The notes beneath the pieces are model-generated. The model was not told where the DNA came from, made no database searches, and saw nothing but the letters and a program-made list of their open reading frames with translations. Below, one piece after another: positions 10,278-46,751 of a DNA stretch of 64,000 nt. The position numbers were made by a program, and so were the translations under genes. The stretch comes from Rhizophagus irregularis (lineage: Eukaryota > Glomeromycota > Glomeromycetes > Glomerales > Glomeraceae). The stretch spans positions 682,001 to 746,000 of the forward strand of contig NC_089459.1 in assembly GCF_026210795.1 (NCBI RefSeq), given 5' to 3'. Within the stretch, counting starts at the first letter, position 1; each line of letters starts with the position of its first letter.

Positions 10278-10880
10278 AATGGGTCAGGTCAGGTCAGGTT
10301 AATTGATAAACCTGACCTGAAGTTTTTTTTAGGTCAGGTCAGGTCAGGTTATATCAAATTATCTGTTTGATCTGATCTGAACTGAAACCTGAAAATTTTC
10401 AGGATTTTTATTAAAATATCAAAAAAAAAATGGTGCAAACCATTTTTTTAAAATATTGCGATTCAGTTTTTATATTAAAATCATATAAAAAGGTGAATCG
10501 CAATACTGCAACTAACTTTTTAAATATAAAATCAATATTAAAAAAGTGAATTCTGATACTGCAATTCACTTTTTATATATAAAATTGATATAAAAAAGTG
10601 AATTCTGATACTGCAATTCACTTTTTATATATAAAATCGATATAAAAAAGTGCATTCCAATATCGCAACTCACTTTTATTATATAAAATCAGTATAAAAT
10701 AGTGAATTCCAATATCACAACTCACTTTTATTATATAAAATCAATATAAAAAGTGAATTATAATACCATAACTCACTTATTATATAAAATCATAGTTTCA
10801 GGTCAACAGGTCATTCAGGTTTTATTGATGTTACAACTTGAACTGATGCTGAATTGCAATTGCTAAACCTGATCTGGCGA
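10278..10880. repeat. 52-bp hairpin tandem array flanked by GGTCA repeats
   Basis: At 10278-10345, GGTCA units (GGTCAGGTCAGGTCAGGTT) and their complements CCTGACCTGA form palindromic clusters. Then from about 10430 to 10790 a unit repeats 6-7 times with a 52-bp period (for example GTGAATTCTGATACTGC at 10546 and 10598). Each unit can fold, because GTGAATT pairs with AATTCAC 17 bp further on. Related CAGGT words resume at 10799-10880. The whole may be a foldback element with tandem arms; target duplications were not found. Confidence 0.6.
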
Positions 10881-26272: not shown

Positions 26273-27412
26273 AGGACCCGCTTACTTCTAATAAAGGTCT
26301 CTTCACAAAATTTCAGATTTACTAGTAATTTTACCAACCCTTTCTGTCTCATAATTTTACCTTATATATAGTGTAACCTTTTAAAATTATATTGAATTTT
26401 ACCTTAAATTTTTAGAGACTTAAATTTTCTTTAAAAACATTTAATTATTAAATAAAGTATTTTACAATAGTTTAAAATTTTTTTAAACATTTATTAATTA
26501 ATACAAAATTTTATTATTTTTATTACTATAAATAAATTTTAATATAAAAAAATACAAAATATAAATTTGCAAATTATTAAAAATCCAGTAATCCGATTTT
26601 AATAAATTTTATACCATTAGAATCATCTCATTAAGACAATTCTAATGGTAGTAAAATCATCTTTCTAGGTTTAATATTGACTGAGATAAGGGTTAATAAA
26701 TTTTATTAATTAATTAAAAAATTATTAAAAAATTTTCTATGCTAAAATGAAGTAAAATTAGTTATTTAATATAAAAATAATACTGAGAAATTACAAAATT
26801 TTTAAAAAAATTTATGGACTTATAATTTTCTCTTCCCTTACCCCACCACCACCCTTTTGTTCTAAAGTTCTTTATATAAATTTTGGCTATCACGTCTAAA
26901 ATAATTCTATTTTATACAAATTTGTTTATATTTTTAATATTTAAATTTGTTACACCGTCACGTCTAAAATTTGTTACACTGTCACGTCTAAATCTTATTG
27001 TAATTTCATTACACTATCACATCTAATTCTTATTGTAATTTCATTACACCGTCACGTCTAATCCTTTTTATAATTTCATTTCACCGTCACGTCTTCTTTT
27101 TATAATTTCGTTACACCGTCACGTCTAATTCTTTTTATAATTTCATTACACCGTCACGACATGTTATTTATTACAATTAAGGGGTAAATTTTCGTGTTGT
27201 ATTTATTTATAAAATTAAGGACCTATACAAATTATTAATTAATTTTACCTTATAAACCGGAAACCTATTTTAACTTTACCTTACATACCCAGAGACCTTT
27301 ATTTGTTATATATATAATTTTACCCTTAACTATTAAGAGACCTAAAATTTAATTTTACTATAAATTTTACCACAGATTTTTGGACACCTATATTAGAAGT
27401 AAGCGGGGTCCT
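26273..27412. mobile_element. 1.14-kb non-autonomous element, AGGACCCCGCTTACTT ends, 8-bp duplication
   Basis: The left end AGGACCCGCTTACTTCTAAT and the right end (reverse complement AGGACCCCGCTTACTTCTAA) are inverted repeats of about 26 bp. ATCTGGAT precedes (26265-26272) and follows (27413-27420) exactly, an 8-bp target duplication. The body holds no gene. An imperfect palindrome around CCATTAGAATCATCTCATTA (26613) and a tandem block at 26950-27165 of CACCGTCACGTCTAATTCTT-like units (about six copies) are its landmarks. It interrupts the LTR-like repeat shared with 22280. Related pieces are at 28408-28835 and 51139-52032. Confidence 0.85.
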
Positions 27413-29407: not shown

Positions 29408-29410
29408 TTC

Positions 29411-29995
29411 GTAAGTTATTTATTCAATTCTACTATATTTATATAATATTTACATATAATTTAAACCAACTAAATTCTTTATTTAAAAAATTATTCAAAT
29501 ATTTTAGATAGTAAGTAATTCTTTTATATTTTATAACATTTACATATAATTTAAACTAACTAAATTCTTCATTTAAAAATTATTCAAATATTTTAGATAG
29601 TAAGTAATTCTATTATATTTATATAATATTTACATATAATTTGAACTAACTAAATTCTTTATTTAAAAAAATTATTTATTAATAATATAGGGAGTATGTT
29701 ATTTATTTAATTCTATTATATTTATATAATATTTTCATATAATTTGAACTAACTAAATTCTTTATTTAAAAAATTATTCAAATATTTTAGATCATAAGTA
29801 ATTCTATTATATTAATATAATATTTACATATAATTTAAATTAACTAAATTCTTTATTTAAAAAATTATTCAAATATTTTAGATCGTAAGTAATTCTATTA
29901 TATTTATATAATATTTACATATACTAATTTAAACTAAATAAATTCTTAATTTAAAAAATTATTCAAATATTTTAGATTGTAAGTAATTATATTAT
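29411..29995 (+). repeat. Tandem intron array, left part (6 units plus start of a 7th)
   Basis: Six consecutive units of 86-97 nt each begin GTAAGT (one GTATGT, one decayed ATAAGT), contain TTTAAACTAAC-like branch sites, and end TTTTAG or TATAG. A 3-nt spacer follows each (ATA, ATA, GGA, ATC, ATC, ATT) and then the next GT. Intron spans: 29411-29507, 29511-29596, 29600-29690, 29694-29790, 29794-29881, 29885-29975. The seventh starts at 29979 and is cut by the retroposed insertion; it resumes at 42647. Confidence 0.85.
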
Positions 29996-30810
29996 TTTTT
30001 TTTTTTATTTTTAAAAACTTTATTATAGATGCGATCATGTCCTATTATAATCACGCTTACTTACATATATAAACTTACAAAATATAAGATAAATAAATAC
30101 ATATAAGAATTAAGCATTATGAAACAAGACTACTTTTCAAAAAGAACAAGTCGACCTGTCACCTAAACGATCCCATCATTGTTAAAAACCATGATGCGAC
30201 CTCAAATTCAAAGGTGACTGTCATGATCTACCTAAAAATTTGCCCAATGACTGCCTCGATGGAATGCCAAATCATTCCATTTATTCCAATTACTTTCTAA
30301 CATCTTACAGCCAACATTTTTAACACTCACTTCAGTGCGATTACTATGTGACTTAGCTTTTTTATCTTTACCGCTAATACCGCACTGCTTTTTTTCCTTT
30401 ACTACACGTTATAAATAACGTGCATGTATGATTCTTTCTTTATTAAAAAAGCTGTATGTATATACTATCGGATACAGAATGATGAAATAAACGAAAACAT
30501 TTCCAAATAATTCGATAAAACTCTGGAAAGTCTATATATTTTTCTTTCAAATAAAATTTGCCATATGTAAATATAATCAAATATGGAATGATGTGAAACT
30601 AAAAATAAATTCAATAGACAAAACTGACTATATATTTTTCTTTCTAACCAAATAGCCTTATGTAAATATTATCAGATAAGGAATAATCTAAAATCCTAAA
30701 ATAATTATTCATTTTTTCACTTTTGATAATTTGTTTCTTAATAATTAGCCATCCCACAAAAGAAAATAGAAAAACAAAACAAGAATAACTAATTATATAT
30801 TTTTGTCTCC

Positions 30811-31577
30811 TTAATATAACATACCTTGCTTTAATTTACAAGCTTTAATTGCACACTGATTAACCACGTAGTCATGAGTAATACCACGTCCACGCCTTCC
30901 TCTTCTAACCCCATTACAATATGTCGTTAAAAGACTTTTATCTCTAATACTATTCAAACCCTGATGAAATTCTGCCCTTGTAATAGGTTCTCGTCTATTG
31001 AGTATTTCTTGCCAAGGAGCGACATTATTCTGTCCACTAATTTCCATTTCTTGAAGGTCCGTAATAATATTGTCTATCGTAGTACTTTAACCAGCACTAC
31101 TCGACTGTTCTGCTAACTTACTATCTTTTCGTTTAAAAGAATCATCTTTTTTCTTTCTTAATTCAAAAAAATGTTCTTCGTTAAAAGAATGATTAATAAA
31201 AATATCATCTATTAACATTTTGTATCCAACTTCACTTGTAACTTGATCTACCAGAAACTCCATTTCTTTTTCTGATATGTATTGTTTCTTAAGAATATCA
31301 TGTCTACGTTTCAATTTATGTTTGGAAATAAGTACTTTTGATCCAATTTCATTATTTGTGACCTGCCATTTATTTTTATTACTCTTGAGGCTATTTTTAA
31401 ACCTCTTTTTATACTTTTCTTGTTCTTTTGATGTCTTAAATTGCTTGTTTATCTGCAAATTTGAATACGTAACTGCATATTTACGTGCTCCACTATCTAT
31501 CAAAACTTTTTTTGTATAAGACACGCCAACGCGTTTACTTATTACTTGTTTAACTTTACTAAAATCCTTGAACACAT
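30811..31577 (-). pseudogene. Unrecognised retrocopy gene, 3' part
   Basis: This is the downstream part of the ORF that begins at 42353, separated from it by the DNA element. It is lysine-rich (VFKDFSKVKQVISKRVGVSY, later KKRFKNSLKSNKNKW), highly charged, then Ser-rich. After a TAA at 31089-31087 the same frame continues (TDLQEMEISGQNNVAPWQEI) and ends with VRRGRRGRG and KACKLKQGMLY. The TAA is thus probably a premature stop in one longer protein. The Arg-Gly stretch suggests nucleic-acid binding. I do not recognise the family. 30012-30810 holds no other gene and looks like the 3' untranslated tail. Confidence 0.6.
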
Positions 31578-31879
31578 TTTCACAGGTCGAAAAGTGAAAA
31601 ATCAGGCACCAATCGGTCACCAATCAGGTAGCTGATTGGTATCTGATTAGTAACCAATTGGTGCCTGATTGGCATTTTCGCCAAATACCGTCACCAATCA
31701 GGCAGTTTGCTAATTTTTGATCCAGTAATCAGAAAAGGATGAAATATAGCTCATTGAAATCGTCTCAACATGACGAATCTAATGGTAGTAAAATCTCATT
31801 TCCAGAATTAATACTTGATGAGAAATTAAGTACATCAGGAAATTATATAGTGCGAAAAGTTGCGCAAGTTTACACATCA

Positions 31880-32330
31880 TAATATTTCGTAAGCTTCCAG
31901 ACCCGCCGCAAGTTTGCGTAAGCGTAATATTTTGTAACTTTTTTAAAATATTTCGAAATATTACGATATGCAAAGCTTCGTAATTTTACGATTTGTAATA
32001 TTCCGTAATTTTGCGGTTCGCAATATTTCGTAATTTTACATAATATTTCGTAAGTTTTCAGACCCGCCGCAAGTTTGCGTAAGCGTAATATTTTGTAACT
32101 TTTTAAAATATTTCGAAATATTACTGTATGCAAGGCTTCGTAATTTTACGATTCGTAATATTCCGTAATTTTACTGCGTAATACTTCGCAACTTTTTAAA
32201 ATATTTCGAAATTCTATGATGCGTAATGTTCCATAATTTGACGATTCGTAATATTCTGTGATTTTACACAACTTAATATTTCGTAATATTTCAAAATATT
32301 TCGATAAATAATACTTCATTTTCTGTACTA
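31880..32330. repeat. Subterminal CGTAATATTTCG repeats, left arm
   Basis: A higher-order unit of about 161 bp is seen twice (CAGACCCGCCGCAAGTTTGC at 31898 and 32059), made of shorter CGTAATATTT/AAATATTACG words in both orientations. Minus-strand open frames here are by-products of the repeat. Such subterminal arrays are typical transposase-binding regions in CACTA-like elements; here that is inference. Confidence 0.65.
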
Positions 32331-32339
32331 TAAGTTTAT

Positions 32340-33180
32340 ATAATGTATGTTTTATTAGATATAATCATAAAAAATTACAAGTATTTATTAATATATACAG
32401 AATACATAAAAGTAAAAAAAAGAAAGAGTAGAGTAACAATATTATTAGACGTAAAAAGAAGAGAAACAGCTATAGTAACGTTAGTATTAGATATAAAGAT
32501 AAAAGAAATATTGTTATTATTGTTAGTATTAAGGTAAAAAGAGTTAAAGAAACAGTAAAAGGAGTAAAAGAAACATGGATATTATCGTTAGTATTAAAGT
32601 ACAAGTAAAAAGAAATAAAGGAAACGTAGATAGTATTGTTAGTATTACGACATAAAGTAACAAAGAGGTAAAAAAAAACGCGTTAATATTAAAATAATTA
32701 GTATTAATAAATAAATATTTCTATACCTGCAAAGTAATTGAACAAAAGAATAAAGAAATAAAGAGAAAGGAAAAAATAAACATGTTGTTAGTATTGTTAG
32801 TATCGTTAGTATTAAAGTACAAGTAAAAAGGAATAAAGGAAACATGGATATTATTGTTAGTATTACGATACAAAATAACAAAGAGGTAAAAAAAAATGAA
32901 AATAATTAGTATTAATAAACAAATATTTCTATACCTGCAAAGCAATAAATTATGAAATATATGTAAATATATTGTATATAATTAAAGAAATATAAATAGA
33001 AAGAAGAGACAAAAAAATTAAAAATATTGAACAAAAGAATAAAGAAATAAGAAACAAAAATAAATAAGACAAAAACGCGTGCATGATTAAATGATTAAAT
33101 GATTAAATCACATGCAAGGATCAGCCTAATTTTGATTGGCCAGAAAATACGATATCGTAAAATTACGGAAATCCGCATTT
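32340..33180. repeat. GTTAGTATTA-type tandem repeats
   Basis: Between the left subterminal array and the nested element there are repeated blocks such as GTTAGTATTAAAGTACAAGT and AAAGAAATAAAGGAAACGTA (around 32590, 32810), AAACAAATATTTCTATACCT (32703 and 32918) and runs of AAAGAAATAAGAAA. No gene is recognised. Confidence 0.5.
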
Positions 33181-33480
33181 TAAAAAATCACAGAAATTGT
33201 ATATGCACAATTACTAAATATTATCCCCTCGTGATAAATTAAAAATTATCAACACAAATTCAACACAAATTTAACAAATTTAACGAAATTTGGCCAAAAT
33301 TAACAAATTTTTACCAGAATTATCAACACAAATTGAACACAAATTGAACACAAATTTCAGCCACGATTTATTTATGTCACACCCGTGTTGTTAAGAATTA
33401 ATAACCATTTTATTTATTAAAACTATATTAATTATGGTAAAAAAAATGCTATTACGTGTGATATATATAAAAAATAATAT

Positions 33481-34905
33481 TTATTTTTTATGCAACCCAT
33501 AATTCTCTAATAAACTATTTACATACCGACCTTCCTCCTCCGTGTTATAAGAGTCAATAGAAAGTATATCATCGTCAGCTATGCCATCGTTGGCATATGC
33601 GTCGTTGGCCCGCATCGTTAACCCGCCACCATCGTTAGCCGCACCATCGTTAGGCCTACCATCGTTAGTCACACCATTATCAGCCGCACCTGCTCTATCG
33701 TCAGCTGCTCTATCACCACCATCGTCTACATCATTACCATCATGAGAATCATCGTCCGAATGTGTAAATTTATCCCTATTTTCCAACTTTTGCTAAAAAT
33801 CAATAAATAAATAAATAAACTGTAATTCAAATAATTCACATTTTGCAAATTGTAAATTAAAAACTTACTAAGTTGTTGATTATCTTCGACTTCATTATAC
33901 TTTCGCTCATTTGAATGTTTTGATTATTAGGATTTAAGTACGTTTCGCATATGCTAATCGCATACGTTATTTGTGTTTTTGAGGGATTTTTATTTTCTTT
34001 TCGCAACTTATCGATTATCGCGACATATATGTCGTAGGTTGCCCATCTTTAACCTTTTTAAATAGGTTGTTGTAACATCTTTTCACCTCCGCCTTACTCT
34101 TCCATTCCTGAATCTTTGACGGACTAGCCTCGAGTGTTAATAGACGGTAATTTATGCCCAGTCCGCTTCGAAAACAGAATACATAACGTCTTTAACTCTG
34201 GACGTGAACGTCCCTCGTATGCTTCTATGTTGTTGTACTAACTATTAAAAAAAAATGTTAGTATGAAATTTAATAAAATTCATAATTGCTTTAACTTACA
34301 GTCGGGGCAATTTTTTTTTCGAAAAAAATAATCCATTGATTTTTTTGAACTGGCGCGCATAAATTCCGGATTTTCGTCTTTTAAATATTTTTCGGTAGCG
34401 AGTTTGTACTCGTCTTGCGAAGGATAAACAAAATTTTCAAATAAAATTTTCGACACCTTCTTAACGAGCTCCTAATCAAACGAGGTTAGCATTTCAGGTT
34501 TACATTAAATAATATTCATCTTTATTACCTTTACATACTCCGGATCTATTGTATTATTATTATTTTTGTTATTATCGTTGAGCTTTTTTTCTATGCTCGA
34601 GAGACGGGTTTCGAGATTTTTTTTGTCCGGTGATAAGAACTTCAAGCTTAGAAATTATCTGCGAATTGGTTCTTAATAGTTTTTCTATTGTTTTTTTATT
34701 AACTTTAACAATAAAATATAATTTAACTATATATTATATAATTTCTTTTATAAAGAATATGATACATATTATGTCATATATACCATCAACACTATCATCG
34801 GATATTCTCACTCGCTTCTCAGCTTCGCTACCCTCAGTACTACGTTTTGAAAATCTTTCATTATCGTCAATTCTTCGTTTTCGCCACGCTTTGTAGCCAT
34901 TATGA
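33481..34905 (-). pseudogene. Second gene of the Plavaka-like element, broken
   Basis: On the minus strand, blocks in neighbouring frames suggest one damaged gene. Near 34900-34790 there is a basic start (KAWRKRRIDDNERFSKR, then SEAEKRVRISDDS). A coiled-coil block follows (NLETRLSSIEKKLNDN), then NFVYPSQDEYKLATEKYL and MDYFFRKKNCPDC near 34320-34480, then EAYEGRSRPELKTLCIL near 34220 and YAISICETYLNPNNQ near 33940. The last block, 33786-33481, is a very acidic Asp/Asn/Ala/Gly tail. Several stops and shifts are present. No known domain is recognised; a DNA-binding or transposase-partner role is only a guess from position. Confidence 0.5.
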
Positions 34906-35545
34906 TAATAAATTTGAAACGAAAATATGAGAAAAAGGAGGAAATATATGAGAAAAAAGAGGAAATATATGAGAAAAAAAGAGGAAATATATGAGAAAAA
35001 GGTGAACTAGAAAATTCGAAAAGGATGAGGAAAAAGGGGGAAATACATGAATCAGAAATTCAGAAAAAGGAGGCAAGCTGTCATAAGGTAATTTCCGCCA
35101 TTCTATACTAAAAAAGAAAAAAAACTTGCGAAATATTGCGAAAAATGGATGAACTAATGCGAAATATTACGAAAAATGAATGTACTAATGCAAAAATTTT
35201 GCATCGTGATATTACGAAAAAATATTGTAACACTTTCATAAGAGAACTTTAAAAAAAATCTCGTAAAAGCACATACATAGTACAATCGAAATATTAATCA
35301 AATCCAATTTATAAAAAAATAACATGTTACACATGTTGGGGCTTTTATGCATGGAAAAAAAAGTTGCAGCCAGTGAACTCATTTGGCTGATCAGATTGAT
35401 AGCGCTTATAACCTGATTATCGCATAAATTTGTGGCTGATCATCCGTCCATTATTGTAAAAGTGATTTGCCGTGTTAAGCCAATAAATTTGCGGCTGATT
35501 ATCAGATGATTAGCCGGCCATCCGAACTCTTACAGCCCGTTACAG

Positions 35546-35757
35546 CAAATTCAAAATATGCGAAACACTCAGCACTTTTGCTGTCAGATTCACTTGGCAG
35601 GTTGCCGGCAAATTGAAATAGTAAATAAAATAATAAACAATATTTATATGGTACATCATAGACTTGTTACATTTATTTTTAGATTTGCCAACCCACGAAC
35701 TCGGCAAGTTCCCGACAGCAAAATTGCTGAGTGTTTCGCATATTTTAAATTTTGCTA
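35546..35757. mobile_element. Small foldback element
   Basis: Two arms of about 42 bp pair: AATATGCGAAACACTCAGCA (35555) with TGCTGAGTGTTTCGCATATT (about 35724-35743), and TTGCTGTC with GACAGCAA. The loop of about 130 bp has a second short inversion (CTTGGCAGGTTGCCGG against ACTCGGCAAGTTCCC). No genes. The rest of 34906-36005 is intergenic, with a tandem of GAGGAAATATATGAGAAAAA units at 34935-34995. Confidence 0.65.
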
Positions 35758-36005
35758 TAATGCGTAAAATTGCGAATGATTCCGCGATATTAGCCACCAG
35801 ATTCTTACAGCCAGTTCCATTCATTAATGCGTAAATTTGCGTAGTCGTGTCTATTCAAATAACTCAATCAATTGTAATCCATTCAATTAATTCATTAAAT
35901 TTTTACAATGAATTTGCAATATAATTTTATTAGCACACATAATCTCATATAAATTAAATAGTGAATTGATACTTTTCATCAAATTTGACGCGTTAATTTA
36001 GTAAC

Positions 36006-38984
36006 ATGAGTTTCAAATGCCCCCTTTGTATGCGAATATTCAGTCAACGCTTTGCATATACTCAACACGCCCAAAAATGCTTAAAAAATGTAGAAGTAGA
36101 AGTAGAAGATGATGATGATAATAATGATAGTGAAAAATATAGCAGTGAAATGGATACAAGAAGTAATCTAAGTAGTGAATATGAAAATGATAAAGTTGAG
36201 GTAATTATGTTATTCCAGATTATTCTTTTTAAAGAAAAAGCTCAAATTATACTAACTCATTTTGGTTTATAATTTTAGGTGGATGATGATAATAATGTAC
36301 AAAATATGTCATTTGACAGTATTGGAAGTGCAATATCAGAGATGAGCCTTGAAGATAGTAACTTTGAAAATATATTAGATTCATCTGAAGAGCCTGAAAT
36401 TTTTGAAGAACCCAAAAATCTCAATACCAAAACTTGCACAGAATTTCCTAATGATGCTTATAAAGATCTAATGTTATTAGTAACGAAATATAAAATAAAC
36501 AATAAAGGTGGTAATGAAATAATACGTTTTTTTAATAAACATTCAAATCTTACAGAATCACCATTACCAAAAAATATTGAACAGGGACGAGCATTTATGA
36601 ATAATATGAAGTTTTCTAATTTAGAATTTAGTAAAGTTCTTATAACAAAACATAAGGATAAAGATTATTTTCTTTATTATCAAAACTTAATACAGTGCAT
36701 CAAAAATATCTTAACTGTTCCCTGACATAACACAAAATTTTGCGCTATCTTACGAAAACTATGAGGTAAATAGTAAATATTAGTTAATTCAATAATTTAA
36801 ATAATATTTATTTTAATTTATTTATATTATTTTATAGTATAATAGAGAAAGTATTTACAGTGAACAAAACACTGGAAAATGGTGGAAAACTACGCAAGAA
36901 TCCTTACCTACTGGTTCCAAATTATTATCAATTATTTTATATTCAGATGCAACAACTACAGATACATTAGGAAAAAGTCAATTGCATCCAATATATATTT
37001 CATTAGGCAATATTCCAATATGGCGTCGTAATAAACAGGATGCAAAGCAACTTTTGGGATATTTACCAATTTTAGAAGCTGCAAATAAAGATCTGGTTCG
37101 TGATACCTTTCATAAATCTTTACGTCATTTACTAGAACCAATTATTTTATTAAAAGATGGTATAGACCTTTTTATAAATAATGAAAATACCTGGTTTTAT
37201 CCTAGAGTTTCAACTATTATTGCAGATTGGCCAGAAGCCGCAAGTTTTTGTTTAGTTTATAAATCCTCCAATTCAAGCCTTCCATGTCACTCCTGTTTAA
37301 TTAAAAGGGACAATCTTGCAAATATAAACTTATCGGTTAATGATGTAATACTAAGAACTCATGATGAAATGCGTAAATATTTTGAAAATGATACACAAAA
37401 ATCTGTTTGCATAGAATCTGTACCTAATTTTTTTTGGGATTTGCCGTAAGTATGCAAAAGTAGAAATAATTATAATAACATATATATATATTAATTATAA
37501 ATATTTATATTATCAAGGAATATAAATATCTACTTGGCTACTGTTCCTGACAGAATGCATCATTTAGATTTGGGTTTATTTCGTTATCAAATTATCTTCA
37601 CGTGCGATATCTTAAAATTGCAACATGTTAATGGTAATAAATTAGTTGAAGAAGTAGATCGCCGTCTAGCAGCAATTCCACGTTTTCCCGCCATTAAAAT
37701 TTTTTCCAATGGACTGCAGTCAATTGCAAGATTAACTGCTAATGAATATCGAAGTTTGATGAAAGTCATGATATTTGTTATTGATAATTTATATGATGAA
37801 AATAATAACGAAGTAGATAATTTTGTAAATAATGATGATCTTGTGAAATTGTACGAATATTGGAATGAAATGTATATTTTAAGTAGATATGAAGAATTTA
37901 GTGAAAGTGACTTGGAGAAATTTAATGTATGTATTAAAATTTTAGTAAAATCGAAAATTTAAATTAAATAAATTAAATTAACATTTAAATTTTAGGATGC
38001 AATACATAGATGGGCGCGGATGTTTGTCAAGGCTTTTAAATTTGTTTCTCCTTCCAATTTGAAGTTGCCTAAATTGCATTCATGGTTTACTGCTATCATT
38101 GACTCAATACGATCTTATGGCGCAATAAACGGCTATACCACATAAACTTACGAAAGTCTCCACAAATATTTCGTTAAAATACCCTACCGAATTAGCAATA
38201 AAAAAGATGTCGAACCTCAGCTTTTACGAACTGTAAGTATTTGGAAATTTATTTATTGTATATATTTATTATATAACTTAAGATGGAAATTAAATTAATA
38301 GATAAAACGTCAAGCAATATCTATTAGAATGTCTCAACATTCAGTGAATCCGGCAAAAACACCTCGCACTTGTAAATTTTCTGCAAGACTCTTTGATTTC
38401 TCTTTACAAGATGCAAATACATTTTTTAATGAAAAAAAAGATTCCGTAGACAATAAAATGCAGACCGGTTTTGCTAGATTTATAAGTTGTCGGATTCATA
38501 TCTAGATTTACTTGATGGGTTCACAATTATTGGTGAAACCCGAATAAACATATACGGATCGGTAACGCTGGAAAATGGTGCCATAATGCGTGCCACAAAC
38601 AGGTATCATAATAAAGTATGGTTTAGCGGACATAGCTATTTCAATGGATTCTGAAGAATCAAATGATTATATATCAGACAAAGGACTTTGTTATGGACAG
38701 GTATTTTTCCAATTTATGTAATAATTTATTATAAAGTATTAATAAATATTTATTATTTATAGGCCTTATTGTTAGCAGAAGTATTAACAGACCCACCGCT
38801 AAATCTCGCATTAATTCAATGGTACGATTTTAAATCTAAAAGGAACCCATATTTATATGGATGTTCTCACGCAAAATTGATAGAATTATATAACTTTGTA
38901 GCTATAGAGTCTATACGTGGTGTCGTTCACATAGTCCGATTTGATAAACAAAATGAATATTTCGTAAATAAATATATTTTTTAG
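36006..38984 (+). pseudogene. Plavaka-like transposase with N-terminal C2H2 finger
   Basis: Exon 1 (36006-36200) begins with a C2H2 finger (CPLCMRIFSQRFAYTQHAQKC), as in fungal Plavaka transposases, then an acidic linker. Exon 2 starts at 36279. After a 1-nt frameshift at about 36722 (VP then DITQNFALSYENYE) exon 3 (about 36839-37446) carries the core: KWWKTTQESLPTGSKLLSII, LYSDATTTDTLGKSQLHPIY, ISLGNIPIWRR, and the CHSC motif. Exon 4 has PDRMHHLDLGLFRYQ. The next exon reads PKLHSWFTAIIDSIRSYGAI, then TYESLHKYFVKIPYR with one TAA. The last exon (38769-38984) ends in the conserved WYDFKSKRNPYLYG and VVHIVRF. The protein is nearly full length with one shift and one stop, so it is a relatively young casualty. 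Confidence 0.78.
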
Positions 38985-39860
38985 TCACTTGATATAGGAG
39001 TTTTGATTTATTTTAATAAAATTATATCCTTAAAGAATTTATGGTCACGTTTCCCATATCATAAATAAAATGCAGATTTATTTATTTATTATTATTAACA
39101 ACACGGGTGTGACGTAAATAAATCGTGACTGAAATTTGTGTTCAATTTGTGTTCAATTTGTGTTGATAATTCTGGTAAAAAATTATTAATTTTGGCCAAA
39201 TTTCGTTAAATTTGTTAAATTTGTGTTGAGTTTGTGTTGAATTTGTGTTGCGTAATTTTTTATTTATCACAAGGGGATGATATTTAGTAATTGCATGTAC
39301 GACGTACAAGATTTTTTTTTATGATTTTTTTAAGAAATGTACGCAAAATATTTAATCAGAATATAATTGTTTTATTTTTAAATATGATATATTGATGATT
39401 TTTTTTAAAAAAAAAATTGATTTTTTTAAAATTCAATAGAATGTGCTAATAATAAATTGGTTTATTTTTAAATATAATATATTGATATTTATATTTAAAT
39501 AACCAAAACATGTACATGATTTTTAATTATTTTTAATTGAAATCATGTACATGATTTTTAATTATTTTTAATTGAAATCAAACTAAGATTTTTTTTTAAA
39601 AAAAAATTAAAATAAATTAAGTGATTTATATTTATATTTAGAATCATGATATTTATATTTAGATAATCCATATCCGCATGAGATTTAATTAATATGTTTA
39701 ATGATGAAAAGTCTAATAAATTAAATTTTAATTGAAACGAGAAATAAAATCAAACCAAAGAGGTATTGTTCAAATTTTATTTAAAGTGACATTTTACGAC
39801 TTTCTTTCAAATTTTTACTCATCCCAAAATCAAATTATAAAAATCAAATCAAATCTAATA

Positions 39861-40480
39861 ATGCCTCGCCAAACACGTCGTCGTTCCTATAACGTCCATT
39901 GGAACTGGGCTATGATGGACGAACTTGTCGACATACGCCGCGACAGAAACCGTGCCTACCATAATATTAATGGTAGAAGCCGCCAAGATTTTTTGGGACT
40001 CTGTTGCCAATAGGTTCATATGACTAATATCTATAATTTCTTTAAGAAAGAATTTAAATTCAAATTAACCAATCCATTTAATTGAATCAGAATAAATAGA
40101 ATATTTCGAATGAGGGTTTCCGGGCAACAGTGCAGCCAAAAGTGGAGGAACCTCGTCAGGGATTACCATGTAAGTAAATAAATAACATTACATTCATATA
40201 AATTAAATGTATTTACCGAATATTCAAACTGATTTTGATATTTAGAACTATGTCCTTTATCGTAATGGTAACCCTGGGCGGCGGCTGTGGACGCGTACCG
40301 GCGCAAGATATTATCGCGAATTTAGAACGAGATTTTGGGAGAGGCCGGGTAATTATACTATAATAAAATTTATAATTAATATTTACGTTCATGTTTTAAA
40401 TTTGATAAATTTGATCAATTTTAGTCGCGCGTGACGATCGTAGCAGGAGAAACTTACCTACGTATCGTAGAAGAAGATAA
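39861..40480 (+). pseudogene. Myb/SANT-like (trihelix) DNA-binding protein gene
   Basis: Three exons (39861-40169, 40246-40348, 40425-40480) with GT-AG introns encode a Myb/SANT-like domain: WNWAMMDELVDIRRDRNRAY, SRQDF followed after a 1-nt insertion by DSVANRF, then CSQKWRNLVRDYH spliced to NYVLYRNGNPGRRLW and REFRTRFWERPG, and a basic tail RDDRSRRNLPTYRRRR. The single frameshift (T-run at about 39990) breaks the reading frame. Such genes occur as partners of PIF/Harbinger-type and other fungal transposases. It lies inside the 10.2-kb element but outside the nested Plavaka-like one, so it probably belongs to the outer element. A functional copy elsewhere is possible. Confidence 0.65.
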
Positions 40481-40830
40481 TTATTTTTATTTTTTTATTA
40501 TTTATTAAGTGAGTAGTATTGATCGTCTGGAATAGAGCTCAGTTTTTTGCATGCGTACTGACCATCGTGCCATAAAAATACGCGTCTTATTTTATAAAAT
40601 AGTAGCGAACAAGTATCAAATGTGTATTTTTTTTATTAAGTTATAATAAAAATTAGAATTTACTTTAATTTTTAACATAAAAATTGTAAATAATAAAAAA
40701 TTCGTAAATAAAAATAAATTTGCTTTCCCAAACTTAAAAAAAAAGGTGTTTATATAAAAGAAAAGGTGTTTATATTATTTTTGATTATTCAATAGTATCA
40801 CATGCCCCTTGTATACGTTCTACTGCATAT

Positions 40831-41335
40831 GCAGTTTACAATCTCGTAAATTTTCGAAATATTTCAACCGTAATATTACGCAGGTTTACAGTTTCGTAAA
40901 TTTTCGAAATATTTCAACCGTAATATTACGCAGGTTTACAGTTTCGTAAATTTGCAGAATATTTTGACCGTAATATTACGCAGGTTTACAGTTTCGTAAA
41001 TTTTCGAAATATTTTAACCGTAATATTACGCAGGTTTACAGTTTCGTAAATTTTCGAAATATTTCAACCGTAATATTACGCAGGTTTACAGTTTTGTAAA
41101 TTTTCGAAATATTTTAACCGTAATATTACGCAGGTTTACAGTTTCGTAAATTTTCGAAATATTTCAACCGTAATATTACGCAGGTTTACAGTTTCGTAAA
41201 TTTTCGAAATATTTCAACCGTAATATTACGCAGGTTTACAGTTTCGTAAATTTTCGAAATATTTCAACCGTAATATTACGCAGGTTTACAGTTTCGTAAA
41301 TTTGCAGAATATTTTGACCGTAATATTGCGTAAAT
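40831..41335. repeat. 50-bp tandem array, right subterminal region
   Basis: Ten copies of a 50-bp unit (GCAGGTTTACAGTTTCGTAA, TTTTCGAAATATTTCAACCG, TAATATTAC) stand at exact 50-bp spacing (CAGGTTTACA at 40881, 40931, 40981 and so on). The copies at 40931 and 41281 share a variant (TTTGCAGAATATTTTGACCG), suggesting unequal exchange or gene-conversion within the array. It corresponds to the left array at 31880-32330. 41336-41480 continues with less regular copies. Confidence 0.85.
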
Positions 41336-41793
41336 CTTACGATATTGAAAACTTACGTAATATTTTAACCGTAATATCACATAAATCTTACGAAATTGTA
41401 AACTTACGTAATATTTTGAAATTTTTCGAAATATTATGCCATAAACTTTCGTAAACTTACAAAATCGTAAACTTACGCAATTCTTCGCACTATAAAATTT
41501 CCTGATGTAAAATATAAAAATAAAAATGTATTATTTATATTTTATTTAATTTTTTATTAACTATTAATCCTAGAGATGCGATTTTACCACCATTAGATTC
41601 GTCTTGTTGAGACGATTCCAATGAGCTATATTTCATTCTTTTCTGATCACTGGATCAAAAGTTAGCAAACTGCCTGATTGGCGAGTATTTGGCGAAAATG
41701 CCAATCATCGCAATCGGTCACCAATCAGGTATCTGATTGGTGACCGATTGGTGACTGATTGATGCCTGATTTTTCACTTTTCGACCTGTGTTT

Positions 41794-42353
41794 GCAATGG
41801 AGGTGTAGGAGTTACTATCACCTTTGAACGACAATTTTGACAAACTTTTCTATTTCTTAACATTATATAAAGACAGACATTCATTACAAAACGAGCATGG
41901 GATGTAAAACCCCAAATACCATGTTCGTCTACCATGACTAAATTTAATATAAGTTGTAGTTTGTCTGTTCTTTTCTTGTTTCTTCAATTTATTTTCAATA
42001 ATTACAAGTTTATCCAATAATAATTGACATATTCTTAAAAAATACTTGTTTCTAGTTTCTATATCAATAGGTAACCCACAAAATACACTCGTCAAGTATT
42101 TTAAAATCCTGTATTTAGTATTCATCATAGGCCGATCCGAATTAATCAAATAAGGCTTATTATATTTCTTTATTATATGTCTATTGTTAGTAACAATCGT
42201 CAACATATCTTTTTCTTTCTGTAATGAATCTACATGTAAAAGGATGTAGGACTTTCCTTTTCGGGTGGAGTATATCGTATCAGCCCCCGTATACCATTTC
42301 ACTTTTTCTGGACAGAAAAAAGTATAGCCGATAAAACTTTCTTTATTCGGCAT
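41794..42353 (-). pseudogene. Unrecognised retrocopy gene, 5' part (zinc-ribbon)
   Basis: The ATG at 42353 opens a 167-codon frame (MPNKESFIGYTFFCPEKVKW, later SVFCGLPIDIETRNKYFLRI, then KKQEKNRQTTTYIKFSHGRR). It ends in CSFCNECLSLYN; a 1-nt shift later the sequence continues NRKVCQNCRSKVIVTPTPP up to the insertion site. The cysteines (C-x2-C-x2-C and C-x2-C) look like a zinc ribbon. Removing the 10.2-kb element and one TTT joins ...PPLQ directly and in frame to NVFKDF of the downstream part (31577-30811). The whole protein would be about 440 residues. The family is not recognised: it could be a retroposed cellular gene or a transposon/virus-derived one. Confidence 0.6.
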
Positions 42354-42629
42354 CTTTTATCTGATTGGTACACCGTATTTACGGTATTTACGCCTTCTTT
42401 TGAAAAAATTTCGCAAGAAAATAAAACTTTTATGTCTTTAAAGGACTATTAAGCCTTGTGAACTTGTTCGAACTGAAAAGAGTGATAATAAAAAGTGTGT
42501 TGTTTAAACTAAGGAACACTTTTGTCTTAATACTGAAGTGCTATTTTTCTAGTAATTTAACGAGAAAAAAGCGTAATATTTCTTGTATGAAAAATGGACG
42601 TGAACGGTACAGGAAAGAGTTTTATGTTT

Positions 42630-43963
42630 GTAAGTAATTATATTATATTTATATAATATTTATAATATTTACATATAATTTAAACTAATTAAATTCTTTA
42701 TTTAAAAAATTATTCAAATATTTTAGATCGTGAGTAATTCCATTATATTTATATAACATTCACATATAATTTAAACTAACTAAATTCTTTATTTAAAAAA
42801 TTATTCAAATATTTTAGATTGTAAGTAATTATATTATATTTATATAATATTTATAATATTTATATATAATTTAAACTAACTAAATTCTTTTATTTAAAAA
42901 ATTATTCAAATATTTAGATCGTAAGTAATTCTATTATATTTATATAACATTTACATATATATAATTTAAACTAACTCTTTATTTAAAAATTATTTTGTAA
43001 TTTCTTATAGTTAGTAAGTTATAAGTTATTTATTTAATTCTATTATATATTTATATTTATATAATATTTACATATAATTTAAACTAACTAAATTCTTTAT
43101 TTAAAAAATTATTCAAATATTTTAGATAGTATGTAATTCTTTTATATTTATATAACATTTACATATAATTTAAACTAACTAATTCTTTATTTAAAAAATT
43201 ATTCAAATATTTTAGATCGTAAGTAATTCTATTATATTTATATAATATTTACATATAATTTAAACTAACTAATTCTTTATTAAAAAAATTATTCAAATAT
43301 TTTAGATCGTAAGTAATTCTATTATATTTATATAATTTCTATATAATATTTACATATAATTTAAACTAACTAAATTCTTTATTTAAAAAATTATTCAAAT
43401 ATTTTAGATAGTAAGTAATTCTATTATATTTGTATAACATTTACATATAATTTAAACTAGCTAAATTCTTTATTTAAAAAATTATTCAAATATTTTAGAT
43501 CGTAAGTAATTCTATTATATTTATATAATATTTACATATAATTTAAACTAACTAAATTCTTTTATTTAAAAAATTATTCAAATATTTTAAATCGTAAGTA
43601 ATTCTTTTACATTTATATAACATTTACATATAATTTAAATTAACTAAATTCTTTATTTAAAAAATTATTCAAATATTTTAGATGGTAAGTAATTCTATTA
43701 TTTATATAATAACATCTACATATAATTCATTAAACTAAATTCTTTATTTAAAAATTATTCAAATATTTTAGATCGTAAGTAATTCTATTATATTTATATA
43801 ATATTTACATATAATTTAAACTAACTAAATTCTTTATTTAAAAAATTATTTATTAATAATATAGGGAGTATGTTATTTATTTAATCCTATTATATTTATA
43901 TAATATTTACATAATTTAAACTAACTAAATTCTTTATTTAAAAAATCATTTAAAATATTTTAG
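42630..43963 (+). repeat. Tandem intron array, right part (about 14 units)
   Basis: The interrupted seventh unit resumes here and thirteen more follow, each GT(A/G)(A/T)GT...CTAAC...AG and then 3 nt: ATC, ATT, ATC, TTA, ATA, ATC, ATC, ATA, ATC, ATC, ATG, ATC, GGA, CCT. Acceptors end near 42726, 42817, 42917, 43010, 43125, 43215, 43305, 43407, 43498, 43590, 43681, 43771, 43864 and 43963. One acceptor is decayed (TTTTAA at 43590). Spacing varies from 90 to 115 nt through indels. The GGA variant unit (TATTAATAATATAGGGAGTA) occurs once in each half of the array, at 29680 and 43855. Confidence 0.85.
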
Positions 43964-44265
43964 CCTGTAAGTATTGCATTTTTTTAATTATAATAATCCA
44001 ATATTTTTTATATTAATTTATTATAATTGTATAATATTTACTAAATCTTTTTAAAAATTTTGGTAATTTATTTTAGTTGGTAAGTTATACTAACTGAAGT
44101 TATTGTATACTATTTATTTAAAATTTAATTAATTAATTAGTTATATTAAAATCTTATAATTTTATTTAGAGTAAGTATAATTAATATTGTTTAATATTTA
44201 AAATTTTAATTGTAAATTTTATTTTAATTTTAATTTTTAATATAATTTCATTTTTATATTTAAAG
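43964..44265 (+). other. Diverged continuation of the intron array
   Basis: The pattern goes on with sequence no longer alike in the body: GTAAGTATTG...TTTTAG|TTG|GTAAGTTATACTAAC...ATTTAG|A|GTAAGTATAATT...TTTAAAG, after which the kinase frame begins at 44266. The splice signals are kept although the intron bodies have diverged, which is what a real intron series would show. Confidence 0.55.
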
Positions 44266-45188
44266 ATTTGGCACTAGTGGAAGTAAAATTGTAAATCAAT
44301 GTATTTCTAAAAATAAATTAAAATGGGTTTGTTATGGTAAATTTGAAAATATTGAATATCATGATAAAGGAGAATTTGGTACTATATATATAGCTAAATA
44401 TATTAGTATTGAAGTAATTCTTAAATATTTTGATTATCTTAATAATTCAGATGAAAGTTTAAATGAATTGTTAAATGAAGTATGATTAAATATTTTTTTT
44501 TTTTAATATTATAATTTATTTATATTAATTAGTTAAATATTATTTTTTTATAGTGGAAAATTATTAATTCAGATGAAATTATTAACATATATGGATTTAC
44601 AAACAAGAATAGTTTAAAAAGATATTTAACAGAAATAACAAAAAGTTGGGAACAAAAATTATTTTATTTATTTCAAATTATTAATAAGGGTCTTAATGAT
44701 ATTCATAAAAAAGATCTTATTCATTATAACTTTCATAATGGTAATATTTTATGTAACAAGTATGAAGAAGATATATATGGAATTTTTATTAGTGATTATT
44801 TAGGATTATATCAACTTGCAAAATCTTTTTTAAAAGAAAATGATATCTATGGAGTTTTATCATTTATAGCACCTGAAATTTTAAGATTATATTCAAGCTA
44901 GTGATATATATAGTTTTTCTATAATTATGTGGGAATTTACATCTGAAATTCCACCATTTAATGATAAAGCGCATGATCTTCAACTTGCCTTAAGTATTTG
45001 TAAAGGTGAACGTCCTGAAATTATTGAAAATACTCCACAATGTTATATAGATTTAATGAAAAAATACTGGGATGAAGATTCATTAAAAAGGCCATCTTCT
45101 AAAGAAGTTTGAATTATCATTGAAGATTAGATTTTTCGTCCCAAAAATGAGAAAATTGAAGGTATTAATGAAGAATTAAAAAGCAATA
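44266..45188 (+). pseudogene. Decayed TKL-like pseudokinase domain, first of two
   Basis: Exon 44266-44479 has a glycine loop (KGEFGTIY) and a VILK-like lysine. After an intron (44480-44553) come LFQIINKGLNDIHKKDLIH, then YNFHNGNIL where HRDFHSGNIL is expected: the catalytic Asp is lost. DFG is replaced by DYLGL. SFIAPEIL (APE motif) is kept. A frameshift near 44895 precedes DIYSFSIIMWEFTSEIPPFN and MKKYWDEDSLKRPSS (44927-45109). TGA (45110) and TAG (45128) interrupt the join to the second kinase, both at sites where Trp would fit. It resembles the expanded TKL kinases of Rhizophagus. Its 5' side is the intron array; no start codon can be assigned. Confidence 0.65.
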
Positions 45189-46751
45189 TTATGGAATTTA
45201 TAAATGCACCAATTGAGCATAATAATCTTATTGTAAAATCTCATCCAAAAGCATGTTATACAAGTCATTTACTTGATTTTACCAGTGAAGAAATAAATGA
45301 AATTGAAATTCTAGGAGATTCTCAAAGATTTCTTAATTTTTTGAATGAATTTAATTATCACTCTATAAAACTGAAAATAAAATTGGTTCCATATTCACAA
45401 ATTAAAATTTTAAAAAAAATAGCAGAAGGAGGATTTGGTATTATTTATAAAGCTTTAATTAATGGAGAAGTTGTTGCTATTAAAAAAGTTTTAAATTCTC
45501 AAGAACTAAATAAATATTTTTTAAATGAGGTAATTAATTTTCAAAATTTGTTTTTTTTAAAAAAGATTTAATATACTAATTTAAACTATAAAATTTTAGT
45601 TAAAATCACTTTATCAATGTTATGATAGTAAATTTGAATATATTATTAAATATCATGGTATCACAAAAGATCCTATAACAAAAGAATTTATGTTTATAAT
45701 GAAATATGCAAATGGAGGGGATTTACATAATTATTTACGAAAGAATTTTGCAAAGATTACATGAAAGAAAAAATTGCACATTTTGTGGCGAATTTCATCA
45801 GATGGGTATTTATAACTTAACGTTATTTAATAATGATTTTAAAATTATTTAAATAAAATTTTATTAATAATCAATTTTTATTTTTAGACTTCAAACTATT
45901 TATGAAAAAGATTTTGTACATCGAGATTTTCATAGTGGAAATATATTAGTTGAAATAATTGAAAATGGCTCATGTAAAATAGATCAATATCTAATTGGAA
46001 ATTTAGGATTATCACAGCCTGCAAATGAAATTCCACATGATAGCAGTATATATGGAGTAATACCTTATATTGCACCAGAAATATTTAAAGGCGCCAAATT
46101 TTCTAAATCATCTGATATTTATTGTATAGGCATGATTATGTGGGAATTAACAACTGGTTGTAAACCTCTTGATAATGTTGAACATGATGTTGATTTAATT
46201 TATAAAATTATTGATGGAAAACGGCCTAATATTACTGATGACACTCCCGAAGATTTTGCTAATTTAATGAAAAGATGTTGGAATCCTAATCCTAAAAAGA
46301 GACCTTTAGCAACGGATGTTTGTGAAATTTTTAATTCTTGGTCAAATATGGGAATGGATGCCGAATATTTTAATCAAGCTGAAGAATTAAGATTAGAATT
46401 AATAAAATCAAAAATGCTTGGACCAGATTTTAATGAAAAACCTCATCCAAAAGCAATTTATACAAGCAGATCATTAAGTTCTTTAACTGGTTCACCTTCA
46501 ATTATAACGTTTAATACGAAATCAAGTATGTAAACATTATTTTTTATATAAATTTGGACAATATTTACAACATTTTAACATTCAATAATTATTATCATCT
46601 TAGATAATAAACTTATTGAAGAATCAATCAACAATAAAGGTATTAAGTTATTTGTTTTAATCAGTACGTAAAGAAATTTTATTAATTACTTGATTCTTTT
46701 TCTTTAGAATATATTACAAAAGAATATGAGTTTGATATAAATGAAATTTAA
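45189..46751 (+). pseudogene. Decayed TKL-like kinase domain, second of two
   Basis: The frame from about 45190 reads a linker (HPKACYTSHLLDF) and the kinase start: IAEGGFGIIYKA, VVAIKKV (lysine present). After an intron comes YIIKYHGITKDPITKEFMFI, a TGA at 45762 (Trp expected), and after another intron FVHRDFHSGNIL with HRD intact. DFG is changed to GNLGL (metal-binding Asp to Asn), then IPYIAPEIF, SSDIYCIGMIMWELTTGCKP and MKRCWNPNPKKRP. The C-terminal tail repeats the HPKAIYTSRSLSS motif, and two small exons (46604-46638, 46708-46751) finish with EYEFDINEI and TAA. Because both domains end in the same tail motif, they probably arose by tandem duplication within one gene. The DFG change and stop argue that it is dead. 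Confidence 0.68.

Follow-up and report, generated by a model that had tools for sequence, protein, structure and literature searches.

The window, that is, the whole 64,000-nucleotide (nt) stretch of Rhizophagus irregularis DNA analysed here (C31:682001-746000, in a genome of 146.7 Mb and 32 contigs), contains a tandem array of near-identical introns that stand head to tail ahead of a kinase exon and are separated by spacers of 3 nt. Such an array had been described in an earlier reading of these letters (the sequence-only reading), and it is present: 22 spacers measure exactly 3 nt, neighbouring donors lie 89-115 nt apart except in the one interval that bears an insertion, and a 1-nt spacer, A, follows the last 3-nt spacer at 44170. 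We think it very probable that this array and its relatives elsewhere in the genome encode the N-terminal linker of a kinase-like protein family as tandem single-codon (3-nt) exons, each with its own intron of about 90 nt, and that the window holds a decayed member of that family.

The 3-nt spacing is a property of the arrays and not of donor-like sequences in general. Over the arrays of the 19 fetched loci and of the window, whose insertion was included, the nearest upstream AG lies exactly 3 nt from GTAAGT in 595 of 645 cases, as opposed to 2 of 39 outside the arrays on both strands of the window, which rules out random 3-nt spacing. A distance of 1 nt was found in a further 37 of the 645, and these are taken to be AGN exons or the terminal A.

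Loci and gene architecture

The sequence-only reading had suggested a search of the genome for further arrays of the same unit, and many are present. A DNA search with one unit gave at least 563 matches (40 of 221 candidates scored), and the pattern TTTTAGNNNGTAAGT occurs 1,153 times in the genome, compared with 96 occurrences of the reversed pattern. Twenty stretches were fetched, corresponding to 19 distinct loci, since L046 and L047 adjoin each other; the window was counted separately. The kinase exon lies directly downstream of the array in 18 of the 19 loci, the match in L057 being partial, and the one exception, L048, reads into a coiled-coil frame. An array found genome-wide and outside genes had been named as the sign of an ordinary satellite; the arrays are indeed found genome-wide, but in the loci read they are linked to genes, occupying, L048 apart, one place of one gene family, and phase 1, unlike phase 2, is kept clear of stop codons in the fetched arrays. 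A plain satellite or minisatellite lying outside genes, and thus placed regardless of genes or frame, is therefore ruled out for the 19 loci read.

In a typical gene, exon 1 (ATGGCTCAAAGTAACGATAAAG or a variant of it, leaving phase 1) is followed by exon 2 (24 nt as a rule), the array, and the kinase exon (phase 2). Exons 1 and 2 lie upstream of most arrays and, where found, measure 13, 19 or 22 nt and 24 or 33 nt, respectively; L055 and L058 have no 5' exons within the fetched view, and the 5' side of L048 is cut off. Each fetched array has between 11 and 120 exons of 3 nt. Its start (CTC, TTG, AAA, ATT, GGT or close variants) recurs in many loci, as does its 3' end (CCT or CTT, then TTG, then A), while the middle is variable in both the number and the kind of 3-nt exons. 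Searches with the 5' exons (at least 41 matches; 40 of 77 candidates scored) and with the kinase exon (150 of 3,342 candidates scored) were only partly scored, so that the family must be larger than the loci read.

Four further, diverged loci (L059 to L062) follow a similar plan. Three of them keep CTC, TTA or TTG, a third exon, ATT and GGT at the start, L059 being different, and AG-A-GTAAGT precedes the kinase exon in all four by sequence, although the scan missed it in L060. No adjacent stop was found among the 63 exons called in these loci, which have gaps in L060 and L061; three of their exons read as 6 nt. As for the margins of the family, L048 (C13:288101-298000) has about 75 exons of 3 nt in phase 1, apparently without a 1-nt exon, and more clusters of TTTTAG-NNN-GTAAGT lie at C1:1865828-1867808, C2:648476-652507 and C2:701758-704870, the first of which adjoins a more distant kinase exon.

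With regard to exon length, a first, looser segmentation called 815 of 889 exons at 3 nt, and a second, in which splice-site profiles were used and the exon length was left free from 1 to 15 nt, called 770 of 792 at 3 nt and 18 at 1 nt. In the completed models, 809 exons measure 3 nt, 17 measure 1 nt and one measures 12 nt, and the 806 introns have a median length of 92 nt. Sixteen of the 17 1-nt exons are the terminal A (15 fetched loci and the window), and the remaining one is a C in L040 that probably belongs to an AGC exon. The terminal A is present in L039 by the first segmentation, looks damaged in L055 and is replaced by G in L040.

Reading frame and stop codons across the array

The lengths of exons 1 and 2 imply that the array is entered in phase 1. 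The 3-nt exons keep this phase, and the 1-nt exon A shifts it to phase 2, in agreement with the kinase exon, which in 12 of 12 loci found by script (window included) is stop-free only with two carried bases, the other phases giving 4-6 or 19-23 stops. In the seven loci in which all outer exons were found, the whole forms a single open frame, microexons included; six closed at once (L044 after one exon was re-read), and L041 closed when TTG was read in place of a 10-nt call at a duplicated donor. If the array, or the A alone, is left out, 4-5 stops appear in each of the seven loci. The sequence-only reading was right that the spacers keep the frame, but the spacers themselves are not codons: phase 1 fits best, and a phase-1 codon takes its first base from the end of one spacer and its other two from the start of the following spacer.

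A phase-1 stop arises where an exon ending in T is followed by an exon starting with AA, AG or GA (NNT, then AAN, AGN or GAN). Under strict segmentation, with no exons placed by hand, none of 683 adjacent pairs makes a stop, compared with a mean of 28.3 (standard deviation 4.0, minimum 16) in 5,000 shuffles within loci. In the completed set, none of the 763 neighbouring pairs makes a stop, whereas reversing the exon order yields 39 in 763 and within-locus shuffling leads one to expect 32.4; pairs of non-neighbours give stops at 33 of 723 (lag 2), 37 of 688 (lag 3) and 35 of 654 (lag 4). When each pair type is counted once per locus, 481 types give 0 stops forward and 33 reversed (p 2e-10). The share of the window in this test is small (15 pairs, none expected to make a stop).

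The other phases fare less well. Read in phase 2, neighbouring exons would produce 132 stops. A phase-0 reading conflicts with both 5' exons and with the kinase exon, and it would leave the missing pairs unexplained; no exon of the completed set is a stop codon, so stops alone do not exclude it. The final base of an exon is expected to be linked to the two opening bases of its successor only if the exons are joined and read, and the avoidance of stops therefore points to both joining and translation. On the DNA evidence, it is most likely that 3-nt exons are joined to their neighbours and translated, and among the three possibilities raised by the sequence-only reading, the run of 3-nt microexons is the one that frame closure and stop avoidance support.

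The same data bear on two other explanations of the array: (i) it may be a minisatellite within one large intron that is removed whole, the inner GT and AG sites being unused relics, which would suit the fact that the unit qualifies as a tandem repeat on DNA criteria and that 7 of the 12 public proteins read (P0003, P0006 to P0010 and P0012) start with MDQF inside the kinase exon, ignoring the array; and (ii) the microexons may be optional, with many skipped, so that one gene gives rise to many linker lengths. Whole removal, which had also been put forward in the sequence-only reading, fails on frame, since joining exon 2 straight to the kinase exon yields the 4-5 stops noted above in the seven assembled loci, and it gives no account of the difference between 0 and 39 stops at neighbouring junctions; we regard it as ruled out by these two results and leave it hardly any probability.

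Optional use of the microexons is a variant of the tandem microexon reading and not its rival, and we hold it tentatively possible. Near-identical donors and acceptors should mispair readily, the loss of any multiple of 3 nt keeps the frame, and damaged units exist. On the other hand, exons two or three apart show no avoidance of stops, so skipping does not appear to be the product under selection, although frequent harmless skipping would still be compatible with the counts. In L041, an apparent skip would give TAA; the bypassed unit has the GC donor GCAAGT, and the frame is open when that unit is used. L041 seems to have two such GC donors, and one was seen by eye in L058.

Splice signals, unit variation and the window copy

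The introns of the arrays carry GTAAGT, ACTAAC and AG. Their conservation was assessed with a junction-centred query that did not require GT or AG, giving 245 ungapped junctions, in which the splice dinucleotides show 3 changes in 980 cells, compared with 2.53% at other intron sites, and ACTAAC shows no change in any of the 245. An earlier count over 778 matches, in which longer unit types were misaligned (AG 4.24%, GT 2.83%, against 7.27% elsewhere), is superseded. Splice dinucleotides and a branch site that are better kept than other intron sites are a further point against unused relics in one large intron, and GT-AG ends with a conserved donor and branch site suggest, by these signals, that the introns are of the U2 type. 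Insertions, several of them palindromic, lie inside single array introns of L040, L043, L049, L054, L057 and L058, with GT and AG kept.

In the same 245 junctions, the three positions of the exon show differences of 4.9, 50.2 and 40.0%, compared with 2.53% at intron sites. On distinct haplotypes, 59 changes fall at the 3 exon sites and 382 at 80 flank sites, a per-site ratio of 4.1; single-step pairs account for 11 of 134 where 4.8 are expected, and the exon window has 15 extra states, where the controls reach a maximum of 12 with a median of 6. We do not claim this hypervariability as proof of positive selection, the excess being smaller on distinct haplotypes, and recombination together with C-G decay at the border of exon and donor could lie behind part of it.

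Another explanation of the arrays is that an introner-like mobile intron inserted repeatedly into a pre-existing coding exon. Units with identical 40-nt flanks on both sides do stand beside different exons, and only 29% of 566 between-locus pairs share the exon. Independent insertions, however, are not expected to fall all in one phase and 3 nt apart, as 770 of 792 exons do, whereas duplication of the unit explains the spacing simply, and some of the variety among exons can be put down to point changes in units that are otherwise near-identical. We consider repeated insertion very unlikely and prefer duplication of a unit of intron plus exon.

The window copy itself (Table 1) departs from the sequence-only reading in two respects. 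The array had been given as one unbroken run from 29411 to 44265; it is in fact split in two by an inserted block of 12.6 kb with an identical 18-nt duplication on both flanks. Every unit had been taken for a well-formed intron, which is true of most, but two are damaged, by changes of GT to AT at 29794 and of AG to AA at 43590. The poly-T edge and the duplication suggest a long interspersed nuclear element (LINE)-like insertion on the minus strand (reverse transcriptase was not sought). It contains inverted repeats spanning 31581-41790 and, nested within these, 33208-39293, the latter with a Plavaka transposase fragment.

Table 1. Features of the array and kinase region in the window
Feature	Position	Strand	Remarks
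First block: 3-nt exons TTC, ATA, ATA, GGA, ATC, ATC, ATT and introns	29408..29978	+	Donor GT changed to AT at 29794, after the first ATC
Target-site-like duplication of 18 nt, left copy, TGTAAGTAATTATATTAT	29978..29995	.	
Insertion within one array intron	29996..42628	-	Poly-T left edge; two nested inverted-repeat elements
Duplication of 18 nt, right copy	42629..42646	.	Array intron continues from 42630
Second block: ATC, ATT, ATC, TTA, ATA, ATC, ATC, ATA, ATC, ATC, ATG, ATC, GGA	42727..43867	+	Introns of about 90 nt
Second block, tenth exon (last ATC before ATG)			Acceptor AG changed to AA at 43590
3' microexons CCT (43964-43966) and TTG (44077-44079)	43964..44079	+	
1-nt exon A (AG-A-GTAAGT)	44170..44170	+	Phase 1 to phase 2 in intact relatives
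First kinase exon of the family, FGTSGSKIVNQCISKNKLKW...	44266..44479	+	Stop-free only with two carried-in bases
Remaining kinase region, broken in the window copy	44554..46531	+	Frame change at about 44885-44899; stop after the stretch ending at 45110

From its sequence, the window copy looks like a decayed member of the family. Splice-dinucleotide changes affect 2 of its 15 junctions and 1 of 230 elsewhere (p 0.01), and the fact that two of the three changes lie here fits a copy that is no longer under selection. The search with the 5' exons (40 of 77 candidates scored) listed 41 matches but none in the neighbourhood of C31:711,000. The 72-amino-acid piece of the window, taken alone, has no Pfam match. 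Other tandem repeats of the window, at 10452-10786 (52-nt unit), 40834-41377 (50-nt unit) and 26974-27158 (35-nt unit), have a consensus that by eye is unlike the intron array.

Predicted protein, proposed mechanism and known systems

Read in phase 1, the arrays give peptides that often begin with ALENW or a close variant and continue in polar, charged strings rich in E, R, Q, L and N, such as ERKRIELELE in L046/L047. The predicted L042 protein carries a protein kinase domain (PF07714 at residues 80-326, E 4e-33; also PF00069), and in L042, L043 and L044 the kinase is followed by a long Q/E/L-rich stretch that is coiled-coil-like in look (unscored). As regards public annotation, P0012 is L045 by sequence, and P0029 (Rhizophagus diaphanus) and P0079 (R. 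irregularis) start with MAQSNDK-VSSS, as the joining of exon 1 to exon 2 predicts. Our protein searches showed no database protein to hold the array. The 2023 R. irregularis assembly paper describes gene models refined with nanopore reads and 2,533 kinase genes (PMC10234402).

Several points weigh against the reading of the arrays as translated microexons: (i) its case is built on DNA, from which the architecture, the closure of the frame, the absence of stops at neighbouring junctions and the conservation of the splice signals are directly observed; (ii) tandem duplication makes the units non-independent, which the reversed order and the counts of distinct types lessen and do not abolish; (iii) the splice-site profiles of the second segmentation were trained on 3-nt exons, and in the completed models relaxed rules permitting 3 nt only supplied 34 of the 809 3-nt exons, two exons depend on GC donors, three mis-called exons (in L041, L050 and L044) were re-read by hand, and two doubtful last calls in L048 (a TAA and a G) were dropped; (iv) a TAA exon and a TGA exon were among the calls of the first, looser segmentation, and merged introns of 133-372 nt occur where a site is damaged or an insertion is present; and (v) among the public proteins, P0001, P0002 and P0011 have other starts, the segments of P0029 and P0079 after exon 2 do not fit the ALENW pattern and are unassignable to microexons, and a search of residues 1-50 of the L044 prediction against about 5.8 billion residues returned no protein of fitting length (three candidates, none with E<=10).

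If the microexons are used as proposed, the introns would be recognised by intron definition and removed singly, probably in the order of transcription, because a 3-nt exon is too small to hold both splice-site complexes together. Each removal would leave three bases and expose the next donor; stepwise (recursive) splicing, offered in the sequence-only reading as a separate possibility, would thus likely be the mechanics of the microexon reading. At the level of DNA, the unit of intron plus 3 nt may duplicate in the manner of a minisatellite, each gain or loss of a unit changing one residue and keeping the frame, so that the linker could drift or be selected in length and composition at single-residue resolution. 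One may go further and see in the family a generator of diversity at codon resolution, in which duplication and loss of units, together with point changes, vary the linker of a receptor-like kinase and variety is selected for, as in self/non-self or partner recognition, with up to 120 exons spliced in strict order during transcription; this extension we regard as doubtful.

Should RNA bear the arrays out, they would be the most extreme exon-intron structures known to us, with tens to 120 one-codon exons in succession as well as 1-nt exons; to our knowledge, no gene with such a run has been described. It would then have to be tested how the spliceosome, in the absence of exon definition, handles near-identical introns in the right order, and the arrays would show a route by which genes can evolve residue by residue through intron duplication. 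Public gene models of this arbuscular mycorrhizal fungus would also turn out to lack the N-termini of some of its kinases.

The arrays share single traits with several known systems. Coding minisatellites are tandem units that alter protein length in frame; unlike them, the Rhizophagus unit of roughly 94 bp adds one residue, the remainder being intron. Introner elements are near-identical introns present in many scattered copies. The stwintrons of Hypoxylaceae (PMC8469720, PMC9024468) likewise occur in many near-identical copies, but they are nested introns; in Rhizophagus, in contrast to both introners and stwintrons, the copies follow one another head to tail in a single gene, and 3-nt exons separate them.

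Very small exons are known from other genes. The 1-nt exons of Arabidopsis (PMC4674806) and of Fusarium CYP621A (PMC12940212) resemble the terminal A in that the frame requires their inclusion, and the latter case combines an argument from phase compatibility with RNA reads and is presented as the second case overall and the first from a fungal gene (PMC12940212); these exons are isolated, whereas the one predicted in Rhizophagus recurs family-wide at the end of a 3-nt array. Drosophila homothorax also has a 3-bp micro-exon (PMC7392893), but a single, alternatively spliced one without an array, and RPS24 has consecutive microexons too, but three (PMC12686416, PMC11162997). Among the titles and abstract beginnings listed from the open PMC set, which covers few subscription papers and preprints, no description of runs of 3-nt exons was found, and the sole paper there with both "microexon" and "Rhizophagus" concerns Rhizoctonia.

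Besides that to the single-nucleotide exons, the closest likeness is to the micro-exon genes (MEGs) of Schistosoma mansoni, a gene family which also has many consecutive, very short exons, mostly multiples of three, and resists automatic annotation. In one account, MEG exons measure 6 bp (3 in the abstract) to 81 bp, mostly 15 bp, their introns measure 100 to almost 5,000 bp, and their products are secreted (PMC10526429). The kinase domain and the Rhizophagus genome place the present family outside the schistosome MEGs, and it differs from them in that nearly all exons are 3 nt and the introns are near-identical, tandem and about 92 nt long, in a kinase-like gene. Nevertheless, a series of very short, frame-preserving exons in one gene is what we find (770 of 792 exons at 3 nt, with the frame closed in seven loci), and the sequence strongly supports the microexon reading, on which we place the family among genes of the micro-exon kind, at their far extreme.

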